A DNA stretch of 64,000 nt. Origin: Salinispora arenicola (lineage in GTDB: Bacteria > Actinomycetota > Actinomycetes > Mycobacteriales > Micromonosporaceae). A program made the translations under genes and the position numbers. The notes below the pieces were generated by a model that did no database searches, was not told the DNA's origin, and saw only the letters and a program-made list of their open reading frames with translations. Where the stretch lies: contig NZ_VFOL01000001.1 of assembly GCF_006716065.1 (NCBI RefSeq), positions 2,728,001-2,792,000 on the forward strand, in the 5' to 3' direction. Positions 5,322-7,873 of this stretch are shown in pieces (positions within the stretch are counted from its first letter, which is position 1; each line of letters opens with the position of its first letter).

Positions 5322-6419
5322 TCAGGCGGGGGTGACGGCCGGAGCCCGACGGCGGGTGCGCACGGCGGCTGCCAGGTCGGCCAGCACCTCTTCCGTGGTG
5401 TCCCAGCCGATGCAGGCATCGGTGATCGACTGCCCGTACGTCAGTTCGCGGGTCGGGTCCAGGCCCTGCCGACCCGGCAGCAGGAAGCTCTCCAGCATGA
5501 TGCCGACGATGCCGTGCTGGCCCCCGGCGAGTTGGGCAGCCACGTCGGCGGCGACGAGCGGCTGGTTCCGGTGGTCCTTGCCGCTGTTGGCATGGCTGGC
5601 GTCGATCACCAGCCGCTCGGGCAGCCCGTCGGCGCGCAGCAGCGCGAGCGCGTCCGCCACCGACTTCGCGTCGTAGTTCGGGCGGTTGCCACCACCGCGC
5701 AGCACCAGGTGACCGTCCGCGTTGCCTCGGGTGTGCATGATCGCTGGGGTGCCGGAGATGTCGATGCCGGGGAACACGTGTGGCACGCCAGCCGCCCGGA
5801 TCGCGTCCACCGCGGTGGAGATGCTGCCGTCGGGGCGGTTCTTCATCCCGATCGGCATCGACAAGCCGGAGGCGAGCTGGCGGTGCACCTGGCTCTCCAC
5901 GGTCCGGGCGCCGATCGCACCCCAGGCCACCGTGTCGGCGATGTACTGCGGGGTGATCGGGTCCAGGAACTCGCATCCGACCGGGAGACCCAGGCGCAGC
6001 ACGTCGATCAGCAGCGCGCGGGCCCGACGCAGGCCGGTGTTCACATCACCGGAACCGTCCAGCCCGGGATCGTTGATGAGCCCCTTCCAGCCCACGGTCG
6101 AGCGCGGCTTCTCGAAGTAGACCCGCATCACCACAAGCAGGTCGTCGGCGAGCCGACCGGCGACCTCGCGGAGCCGGTGGGCGTAGTCGAGGGCGGCGGC
6201 CGGATCGTGTACCGAACACGGGCCGACCACCACCAGGAGGCGGTCGTCGGCGCGGTCCAGCACCCGGCCGACAGCCCGTCTGCCAGTGAGTACGGCCGAG
6301 GTGAGCCGATCGTTCAGGGGCAGCTCGTGGTGTAACAGGGCCGGGGTGGTCAGCGGCACCACACGATCGATCCGCTGATCGCTGATCCGGTCCATCTCCG
6401 AGGTGGTCACGGTGGGCAT
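5322..6419 (-). CDS. aroG: Class I 3-deoxy-D-arabino-heptulosonate 7-phosphate synthase
   Basis: This enzyme catalyses the first step of the shikimate pathway: phosphoenolpyruvate plus erythrose 4-phosphate gives DAHP. At 365 residues it matches the AroF/G/H class I-alpha type. Signatures seen are VVVGPCSVHD, VYFEKPRSTVGWKGL, GCEFLDPITPQYIAD, GMKNRPDGS and VIDASHANSGKDH, which carry the metal-binding Cys and His and the substrate-binding Lys/Arg. Most actinobacteria rely on class II enzymes, so a class I copy is notable. ATG 6419 follows GAAGGG. An attenuator with an aromatic leader peptide lies directly upstream. The symbol among aroF/G/H cannot be settled from sequence alone. Confidence 0.93.
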   Translation of the reverse strand: MPTVTTSEMDRISDQRIDRVVPLTTPALLHHELPLNDRLTSAVLTGRRAVGRVLDRADDRLLVVVGPCSVHDPAAALDYAHRLREVAGRLADDLLVVMRVYFEKPRSTVGWKGLINDPGLDGSGDVNTGLRRARALLIDVLRLGLPVGCEFLDPITPQYIADTVAWGAIGARTVESQVHRQLASGLSMPIGMKNRPDGSISTAVDAIRAAGVPHVFPGIDISGTPAIMHTRGNADGHLVLRGGGNRPNYDAKSVADALALLRADGLPERLVIDASHANSGKDHRNQPLVAADVAAQLAGGQHGIVGIMLESFLLPGRQGLDPTRELTYGQSITDACIGWDTTEEVLADLAAAVRTRRRAPAVTPA

Positions 6420-6475
6420 CCCTTCGCCGACCGCGCCCGGGGCCGGTGCCCGGGGAGAGCCGGCTGCTCGTACGC

Positions 6476-6504
6476 AAAAAGGCAGGAGCGGAAGCTCCTG
6501 CCTT
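6476..6504 (-). terminator. Intrinsic terminator (attenuator) before DAHP synthase
   Basis: On the reverse strand an 11-bp perfect stem (AAGGCAGGAGC with its complement, 4-base loop) is followed by five T residues. It stands between the leader peptide and the DAHP synthase start, as in a transcription attenuator rather than a gene-end terminator. Confidence 0.8.
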
Positions 6505-6530
6505 GCCGGCTCAGTGCGGGTGACGTCAGC

Positions 6531-6590
6531 TCACGATGAGGTCACCGGCGGGCGAGCCGGCTGCCTAAACCATCGATACGAGCGAGTCAT
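6531..6590 (-). CDS. Leader peptide with Tyr-Arg-Trp-Phe run
   Basis: A 19-codon ORF encodes MTRSYRWFRQPARPPVTSS. Tyr, Trp and Phe codons sit within four codons, the arrangement expected of a ribosome-stalling sensor for aromatic amino acids. It ends 26 bases before the intrinsic terminator stem. An 8-base segment inside it (GCCGGCTC) is perfectly complementary to GAGCCGGC just before the terminator, giving a possible alternative pairing. The start has no Shine-Dalgarno sequence. TAGACT lies 7 bases upstream with GTGAGC a further 18 bases away, so the transcript is probably leaderless. Seen directly in the sequence; its regulatory role is inferred. Confidence 0.7.
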   Translation of the reverse strand: MTRSYRWFRQPARPPVTSS

Positions 6591-6597
6591 GTCGGCG

Positions 6598-6627
6598 AGT
6601 CTACCCGATCCGACGGCGACGGCTCAC
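6598..6627 (-). promoter_or_regulatory. Promoter of leader peptide-DAHP synthase unit
   Basis: The -10 TAGACT (6598-6603) and -35 GTGAGC (6622-6627) are separated by 18 bp. The predicted transcription start falls on or beside the leader peptide ATG at 6590. Confidence 0.55.
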
Positions 6628-6721: not shown

Positions 6722-7873
6722 ATGGATCGTCGTACTGTGTTGCGGGCCGGCGTCGCCGGTGGTGCCGCGGCCTTTTCCGGCAGCCTGTGGGCTGGTGCCG
6801 CGCTGGCCGACCCTGCCCAGCCCGGCGACAGCCCCTACGGATCCCTGCAGCCGGCCGACGCGCTGGGCATTCAGCTACCCGCAGGATTCACCAGCCGGAT
6901 CGTCGCCCGTTCCCGGCAGGCCGTCGCCGGCACCGGGTACGACTGGCACGATGCCCCCGACGGTGGGGCCTGCTTCGCCGCTGGTGCCGGATGGGTCTAC
7001 GTATCCAACTCGGAGATCAGTCCGGGTGGCGGAGCGTCGGCGATACGGTTCGCCGCCGACGGCAGCATCGCCTCGGCATACCCGATCCTGTCGGGTACCC
7101 GGCGGAACTGCGCGGGTGGGGCGACGCCCTGGGGGACGTGGCTCTCCTGCGAGGAGGTCAGCCGCGGCTACGTGTACGAGACCTACCCACTGGGCGGTGC
7201 GAACGCGGTGCGGCGGGCCGCGATGGGTCGGTTCAACCACGAGGCCGCCGCCTGCGACCCCGTCCGTCGGGTGATCTACCTCACCGAGGACGAGAGCACG
7301 GGCTGCTTCTACCGATTTCGCCCGACCACCTGGGGTGACCTCTCGGACGGGATCCTGGAGGTGCTGGTGGGTGGCACCGCCACCAACGGCCCGGTGGCCT
7401 GGGCGCAGGTGCCCGACCCGGACGGCTGGCCGACGCACACCCGTTACCAGGTCTCCGGGGCGAAGCGGTTCGACGGTGGCGAGGGCTGCTGGTACGCCGA
7501 CGGGACCTGCTGGTTCACCACGAAGGGGGACAACCGGGTCTGGGCGTACGACGCGGTCCACCAGCGGGTCGACCTGGCGTACGACGACTCACTGGTCTCC
7601 GGCACCGCTCCGTTGACCGGGGTGGACAACATCACCGGGACCCCGGGCGGTGACCTCTACATCGCCGAGGACGGCGGTAACATGGAGATCAACATCATTA
7701 CGCCGGACGAGGTCGTCGCCCCGTTCCTGCGGATCACCGGCCAGTCCTCGTCGGAGATCTGCGGCCCGGCGTTCTCGCCCGACGGCACACGGTTCTACTT
7801 CTCGTCGCAGCGCGGCACCTCCGGATCGTCCTCCGGCGGAATCACCTACGAGGTGCGCGGCCCGTTCCGCTGA
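6722..7873 (+). CDS. Tat-exported PhoX/DUF839 family protein
   Basis: This is a predicted extracytoplasmic phosphatase-like beta-propeller protein. The N-terminus MDRRTVLRAGVAGGAAAF has the twin-arginine pattern followed by a hydrophobic stretch and a cleavage-like AALA-DP, so export is probably by Tat. The body (383 residues) shows PhoX/DUF839 features such as GGATPWGTWLSCEE, GRFNHEAAACDP and YLTEDESTGCFYRF, plus a C-terminal metal-site-like NITGTPGGDLYIAEDGG. Family members bind Ca/Fe and hydrolyse phosphate esters. This one is shorter than the classical PhoX of about 600 residues, so substrate and activity are uncertain. GGAGG lies 5 bases before ATG 6722. Monocistronic in context. Confidence 0.85.
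   Translation: MDRRTVLRAGVAGGAAAFSGSLWAGAALADPAQPGDSPYGSLQPADALGIQLPAGFTSRIVARSRQAVAGTGYDWHDAPDGGACFAAGAGWVYVSNSEISPGGGASAIRFAADGSIASAYPILSGTRRNCAGGATPWGTWLSCEEVSRGYVYETYPLGGANAVRRAAMGRFNHEAAACDPVRRVIYLTEDESTGCFYRFRPTTWGDLSDGILEVLVGGTATNGPVAWAQVPDPDGWPTHTRYQVSGAKRFDGGEGCWYADGTCWFTTKGDNRVWAYDAVHQRVDLAYDDSLVSGTAPLTGVDNITGTPGGDLYIAEDGGNMEINIITPDEVVAPFLRITGQSSSEICGPAFSPDGTRFYFSSQRGTSGSSSGGITYEVRGPFR

Follow-up and report, generated by a model that had tools for sequence, protein, structure and literature searches.

The region upstream of aroG, the gene for a class I DAHP synthase, raises the question of whether one short leader peptide could report on tyrosine, tryptophan, and phenylalanine together and so control entry into the shikimate pathway. 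In the trp and phe attenuators of enterobacteria, a leader open reading frame (ORF) carrying codons for the end product is followed by a terminator that precedes the structural gene. Comparable elements are on record for actinobacteria, each cited here for the portion of the source that concerns the leader: trp attenuators of Streptomyces and Corynebacterium (PMC1262725); a Phe-Tyr-Phe leader preceding aroF in C. glutamicum (PMC4046766), which a review names aroR and describes as responding to limitation for phenylalanine and not for tyrosine (PMC11802643); and eight leaderless leader peptides in Streptomyces lividans, for Leu, Trp, Ala, Ile, Met, and Thr (PMC8079986). In the relevant portion of the survey by Seliverstov in 2005, which used actinobacteria, no conserved structures were reported before phenylalanine/tyrosine operons, and the genome list in that portion holds no Micromonosporaceae (PMC1262725). 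Here, we examine the aroG locus within a window of 64,000 nucleotides (the whole stretch of DNA analyzed); the window genus and the family, Micromonosporaceae, are those of its host.

Results

Layout of the locus and identity of the downstream gene

An arrangement of aromatic leader and terminator upstream of aroG was confirmed at positions 6476 to 6603 of the minus strand (Table 1). The original prediction had read from the DNA a 19-codon ORF with Tyr-Arg-Trp-Phe inside four codons, an 8-bp complementarity between the leader and the segment before the terminator, an 11-bp hairpin with TTTTT, and aroG downstream, and all of these elements were recovered; A1 and A3 (6561 to 6554 and 6512 to 6505) are perfectly complementary over 8 bp, and two T of the run are counted in the stem. 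The leader ends in NTGANCTGA (6526 to 6534), which supplies stops in two of the three frames and lies at the same place across the window genus. By eye, indels in the loop past A1 alter the frame within the genus while the stop is kept. The divergent neighbor at positions 6725 to 7870 of the plus strand is a PhoX-type phosphatase (PF05787) and shares its intergenic region with the leader promoter.

Table 1. Features of the leader region upstream of aroG, in window positions
Feature	Position	Strand	Basis or remark
-35-like GTGAGC, weak	6622-6627	-	Read from sequence; 18 nt from the -10 box
-10 box TAGACT	6598-6603	-	7 nt upstream of leader ATG 6590
Leader ORF MTRSYRWFRQPARPPVTSS, 19 codons plus TGA	6531-6590	-	Sequence, relatives, shuffle control
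Putative sensing codons TAT-CGA-TGG-TTT (Tyr-Arg-Trp-Phe)	6567-6578	-	Tyr TAT 6578-6576; Trp TGG 6572-6570; Phe TTT 6569-6567
A1 GCCGGCTC, 5' arm of long helix	6554-6561	-	5 nt past Phe codon; folding
GGTGAC, 5' arm of inner helix in the long-helix loop	6541-6546	-	Window-type alignment (helix 2)
GTCACC, 3' arm of inner helix	6519-6524	-	Window-type alignment (helix 2)
A3 GAGCCGGC, 3' arm of long helix	6505-6512	-	Immediately 5' of terminator; folding, duplex test
Terminator hairpin, 11 bp, loop TTCC	6479-6504	-	Arms AAGGCAGGAGC 6504-6494 and GCTCCTGCCTT 6489-6479
T-run TTTTT	6476-6480	-	Two of its T fall within the 11-bp stem
A4 GCCGGCTC, second possible A3 partner	6457-6464	-	3' of terminator; duplex test
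aroG, class I DAHP synthase	5322-6419	-	Start probably GTG 6410; profile matches

The aroG product is a class I DAHP synthase by profile (TIGR00034 aroFGH, 470.6 bits; PF00793), and in a search of the whole 5.63-Mb, single-contig genome, its sole match at an E value of ≤0.001 was itself. Class II DAHP synthase (PF01474) was matched at two other places, G000:C1:3165516-3166799 on the plus strand and 5615367-5616491 on the minus strand (the latter being two adjoining hits), which gives the pathway an entry besides the class I enzyme. For aroG, a start at GTG 6410 (6408 to 6410) is more likely than one at ATG 6419, since the ATG lies inside the likely ribosome-binding site and since relatives compared by eye use this GTG or an ATG more distant from the site. 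The 120 nt from the leader stop to the likely start of aroG include the terminator.

Occurrence of the leader among related aroG loci

AroG was searched against 150 genomes of the family, giving a match at an E value of ≤0.001 in 121 genomes and at 128 places, for 110 of which the upstream DNA was examined. Among these were 96 distinct loci with AroG proteins of 57 to 100% identity and 14 divergent copies of 48 to 58% identity. Leaders were detected with a finder that required at least two aromatic residues within six codons and a TANNNT box 3 to 11 nt before the start. At 95 of the 96 related loci (the exception being L048), this finder returned a leader of 18 to 23 codons with the box 6 to 8 nt ahead of the start, as opposed to a mean of 0.1 and a maximum of 1 over 20 rounds of dinucleotide shuffling of the same 96 regions; the occurrence of the leader is beyond chance. 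None of the 14 divergent copies gave a hit with the same finder. Three of them (L098, L103, and L104) are class I copies lying directly 3' of coding DNA in a setting that resembles a biosynthetic gene cluster; from a motif, we take the preceding coding DNA to resemble the end of a carrier-protein gene. A stricter finder requiring three aromatics retained 86 of the 96 loci, the nine dropped loci being Tyr..Phe leaders without Trp.

R1, a covariance model built on the window type, was also run on the host's own genome and on 61 genomes of the family. It matched a single place in the former (E value of 2.6e-21) and 28 of the latter, and in all 28 the best match lay directly upstream of class I aroG; one genome (G057) gave an extra weak match on the opposite strand at the same spot. 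The model misses leaders of another type in at least four genomes (G011, G049, G018, and G052).

The leader is not confined to Micromonosporaceae, the family in which the original prediction had proposed to look for it. In a class-wide sample of 216 genomes, 41 held the enzyme at an E value of ≤1e-60, 3 of them from the window genus; a leader was present at 27 of the 38 loci outside that genus, and the 11 loci without one were ten from a single family (f17) and one (L128) whose sequence is partly N. Among 80 named loci, 29 were judged actinobacterial by their titles and 20 of these had a leader: Williamsia, three Mycobacterium/Mycolicibacterium, two Dietzia, Streptomyces sp. 150FB, Isoptericola, Puerhibacterium, five Arthrobacter, Pseudonocardia, Amycolatopsis, Glycomyces, Microbacterium, Paractinoplanes (L221, whose leader resembles those found in the window's family), and Nocardia. 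The nine without were two Nocardiopsis, two Streptosporangiaceae/-ales bins, four Bifidobacteriaceae, and Gryllotalpicola. Eighteen of 20 further, hand-picked places across the order had a leader as well; the family, class-wide, named, and order-wide sets share some members and do not count as independent samples.

The 51 non-actinobacterial named loci gave 13 finder hits, of which ten were betaproteobacterial, one was similar (L226, from an unclassified proteobacterium), and two (L190 and L234) were weak, with just two aromatics each. The ten betaproteobacterial loci (L199, L204, L206, L209, L215, L216, L222, L228, L230, and L233; mostly Comamonadaceae) carry another aromatic leader before their DAHP synthase gene, with a different sequence (e.g., ..FYFWFSVPGGREA..) and a -10-like box 6 to 8 nt ahead. 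By eye, in several of them, GGCGG past the aromatic codons can pair with CCGCC in one arm of a strong terminator, which is the classical layout with a shared arm. This leader looks like an independent invention, and our searches of open-licence PMC papers returned no description of it.

Composition of the leaders

Codons and peptides were compared over 142 actinobacterial leaders (95 from the family, 27 class-wide, and 20 named), a set that includes repeats between samples and holds 122 distinct peptides. The original prediction also gave a promoter, GTGAGC-18-TAGACT, and its two halves fared differently. In all 142 leaders, TANNNT ends 6 to 8 nt ahead of the start; since the finders already demanded the box 3 to 11 nt upstream, only the narrowness of this spacing is informative. 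The exact -35 hexamer was found at 5 of the 16 window-genus loci and at none of the 79 other family loci, which counts against that half.

Tyrosine, tryptophan, and phenylalanine all occur in the core of 120 leaders; the remainder have Phe and Tyr (20), Phe and Trp (1), or Trp and Tyr (1), and the 20 leaders without Trp count against sensing of three amino acids. The order of the core varies (YRWF, WYAWF, SFYWF, SFYWFGW, WSFYWF, LYWWF, RYWRF, and WYAYF). The peptide changes between loci with the aromatics constant, and the residues outside the aromatics differ between families. The refuting case named in the original prediction, a conserved hairpin with unconserved leader codons, was not borne out: aromatic codons are kept at 95 of the 96 family loci despite the changing peptide. 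Codon choice within the leaders is narrow, with 158 TAT to 3 TAC, 146 TTT to 18 TTC, and 159 TGG, so that TAT and TTT are near-exclusive there; both are rare in the window's genes, where aroG and three other ORFs summed give 1 TAT to 44 TAC and 4 TTT to 34 TTC (host codon use being taken from the window only). TAT and TTT may be decoded slowly. As the arrangement is kept in related bacteria despite the changing peptide, more enzyme is probably made when tyrosine, tryptophan, or phenylalanine runs short.

RNA structure around the terminator

Two alignments were made by hand, one per clade type, with rows picked for diversity: 38 rows of GGCTCC-type branches (alignment A2; L161, which has no terminator, was excluded) and 39 rows of the window type (alignment A3). 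In the GGCTCC-type alignment, the A1:A3 helix reaches 94.3% pairing, and 4 of its 12 pairs carry both-side changes (24 cells); for the terminator, the values are 96.5% and 9 of 11 pairs (45 cells). The total of 69 such cells compares with 13.6 ± 5.2 after shuffling, a control that leaves the kinship of the rows in place, and 4 to 15 with slid partners. In the window-type alignment, the terminator shows both-side changes in 5 of 11 pairs; A1:A3 is 91.3% paired and near-invariant, with both-side change in 1 of 8 pairs, and this clade therefore neither proves nor refutes the helix. The A1:A3 helix is thus supported by compensatory changes in one of the two clade alignments. When 95 rows were scanned freely for covariation, the cross-clade alignment being poor, a clear signal came from the terminator only and none from A1:A3. 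A local hairpin, A1:A2, is formable nearly always and showed no compensatory change, so no conclusion was built on it.

In a duplex test over 92 leaders, A1:A3 had a z score below -2 in 82 (mean of -4.1) and the competing pair A3:A4 in 51 (mean of -2.1). A4, in the window a perfect complement of A3, recurs in the window-type branches and is weak in the GGCTCC-type branches; in the window type, A3:A4 pairing would enclose the terminator. A terminator with a T-run was found in 125 of 136 leaders (the 142 less 6 repeats). Only 2 to 5 T occur in the 6 nt past the stem (90 leaders), which counts against an attenuator. A T-box or other Rfam family was set aside, as no curated covariance model matched over the element at its gathering score; the best weak hit was SorY, at 22.8 bits against a required 111 (E value of 0.013).

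Predicted geometry of the helix, terminator, and stalled ribosome

In unforced folds, the A1:A3 helix was absent from 7 of the 125 leaders with a terminator. Geometry was measured on unmasked folds of the remaining 118, which are left of the 142 once 6 repeats, 11 leaders lacking a T-run terminator, and these 7 are set aside. The helix starts 2 to 5 nt past the last aromatic codon in 105 of the 118, its far end lies 0 to 2 nt from the terminator in 87 (extremes of -2 and 6), a terminator arm is shared with it by 1 to 2 nt in 13, and the leader stop codon falls within its loop in 114. A ribosome covers about 12 nt beyond the start of its A site. With this footprint modeled, A1 would stay uncovered during a stall on the Tyr codon in 113 of the 117 leaders that have Tyr, and it would be covered in part during a stall on the final aromatic codon in 118 of 118; Phe and Tyr stalls would therefore not be equivalent. 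As modeled, the geometry is that of a structure that would form on stalling and be hindered on completion of the leader.

How such a structure might act on the terminator differs between groups of loci. In most relatives, as in the window, the helix adjoins the terminator without taking its arm, and folding of the window RNA brought out no antiterminator with an arm in common with the terminator. The mean predicted probability of the terminator was 0.90 with no ribosome, 0.93 with a stall at the first codon, 0.95 with a Phe stall, and 0.90 with a ribosome at the stop (96 rows, including one duplicate of the window and five without a T-run). In partial transcripts (90 rows), in which the 3' arm is still unmade, the 5' arm of the terminator was engaged upstream at 0.56 with no ribosome, 0.10 at the Tyr stall, 0.42 at the Phe stall, and 0.56 at the stop. 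A classical antiterminator was rejected for the window clade on these grounds, the terminator probability being unchanged and the 5' arm being freest at the Tyr stall. A longer A1:A3 helix, reaching into the terminator arm by way of CGCTTT:AAGGCG, was likewise discarded, being found in only L072, L096, and, in part, L080 among 16 folds.

For loci without a T-run, a crude test scored any overlap of at least 5 nt between the predicted A3 stretch and predicted 5' arms; it left out L161, L166, and L167 and included, among named loci, Pseudonocardia, Amycolatopsis, and Nocardia. A3 overlapped the arm of a downstream hairpin at 22 of 23 loci, and since A3 is mostly an arm of that hairpin, exclusion there would be by pairing. 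This result supports A1:A3 as the "on" structure in the loci without a T-run.

Discussion

A proposed mechanism

We consider it probable that the element is a ribosome-mediated transcription attenuator that senses tyrosine, tryptophan, and phenylalanine together and controls aroG. The original proposal of a single such leader is supported at the level of sequence, all three aromatics being present in 120 of 142 leaders. Its label "attenuator" holds for the parts and their presumed logic, with the switch itself as a proposal, since in the window no base pairing sets the helix against the terminator. Judged by the -10 spacing, transcription would start at or beside the leader start codon, and the leader would then be translated from a leaderless mRNA, with no ribosome-binding site. 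When none of the three charged tRNAs is lacking, the ribosome would reach the stop codon inside the A1:A3 loop and separate A1 from A3, and the terminator would halt transcription before aroG. With any one charged tRNA short, the ribosome would stall on TAT, TGG, or TTT just 5' of A1, A1 could pair with A3 while the stall lasts, and more RNA polymerase would reach aroG. In the window, the likeliest route from helix to readthrough would be steric: the helix and the ribosome stalled at its foot may leave the terminator hairpin no room at the polymerase exit.

A fuller reading, which we offer tentatively and regard as possible at best, joins these points: the leader would emit a three-amino-acid OR signal with no pairing antiterminator, the helix would tuck the remaining leader RNA away and dock the stalled ribosome against the terminator, which would be blocked by crowding, TAT and TTT would have been selected as slow codons that sharpen the response, and the device would be old in Actinomycetia and reinvented in Comamonadaceae.

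Alternative explanations

The same geometry could be used in the opposite sense, with A1:A3 supporting the terminator and a stalled ribosome weakening it by covering A1. The helix adjoins the terminator (gap of -2 to 6 nt, and of 0 to 2 nt in 87 of 118) and could stack on it, and in every leader of the set the foot of A1 would be covered by a ribosome stalled at the final aromatic codon; against this use, A1 would stay uncovered during a Tyr stall in 113 of 117, which would make the strongly kept TAT useless, and the helix excludes the downstream hairpin in the 22 of 23 loci counted by the crude test. We judge this reading unlikely. A translational output from the same leader, in which A3 toggles between A1 and A4 and so opens or closes the aroG ribosome-binding site, draws on the complementarity of A4 to A3 (z score below -2 in 51 of 92) and on a predicted shift upon masking of A1: from ribosome at the stop to Phe stall, A1:A3 falls from 6.6 to 2.0 bp and A3 pairing downstream rises from 4.3 to 9.1 bp (means of 90). 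The relay was nonetheless rejected, because the predicted openness of the ribosome-binding site stayed the same (0.54 versus 0.56); the T-run terminator in 125 of 136 leaders and the weakness of A4 in GGCTCC-type branches also speak against translational output, and we hold it to be distinctly unlikely.

Two further explanations would dispense with sensing by the peptide. The conserved block might be a protein-binding site on DNA or RNA to which the peptide is incidental, as TATCGATGGTTT is identical at 16 of 16 window-genus loci and at 18 of 79 other family loci; elsewhere, the nucleotides change and the aromatic residues stay, in varying order and number, and this varying peptide with kept aromatics ruled out a motif of nucleotides only, leaving such a site very improbable. 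Alternatively, the short ORF might merely boost aroG translation by delivering ribosomes, a leader-gene role proposed in general terms in the portion of PMC4833913 that deals with it, or might encode a working small protein. Delivery would have to span the 120 nt and the terminator that separate the leader stop from the likely aroG start, peptide residues other than the aromatics vary from family to family, and either role seems scarcely credible here.

Relation to known leaders and significance

The closest counterpart by published description is C. glutamicum aroR, likewise an actinobacterial aromatic leader before a DAHP synthase gene with ribosome-mediated attenuation, and the window element similarly places an aromatic leader directly before a class I gene. 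It differs from aroR, whose Phe-Tyr-Phe leader, in the parts of the sources that describe it, comes with no mention of Trp and answers to Phe and not Tyr; this counts against three-way sensing. With the trp and phe attenuators, the window element shares a leader ORF, presumably translated, with codons for the regulated amino acids, a predicted intrinsic terminator between leader and structural gene, and a helix that a stalled ribosome would permit; those systems, unlike it, use one amino acid in repeated codons and an arm shared by antiterminator and terminator. The leaderless leaders of S. lividans resemble it in having a short ORF at the transcript end (presumed for the window), hairpins, and, in part, a U-rich stretch, with none for DAHP synthase, unlike the window element, in the relevant portion of that report. 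A search of open-licence PMC literature returned no description of this leader in Micromonosporaceae and no DAHP synthase leader with three aromatics. Work by Wolf in 2017, cited in PMC8079986, reportedly treats Actinoplanes. The kind of leader is already known; within open-licence PMC literature, what looks new is the sensing of three amino acids by one leader as proposed here, the spread of this form, and a helix that abuts the terminator.

Shared-arm pairing does not account for the last step in this attenuator layout, and the natural series of leaders (Tyr and Phe; Tyr, Trp, and Phe; varied orders) suits study of multi-amino-acid sensing and of rare leader codons. Actinobacteria include many makers of aromatic-derived natural products. 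If the proposed mechanism is true, actinobacteria would tune entry into the shikimate pathway directly by all three of its end products.
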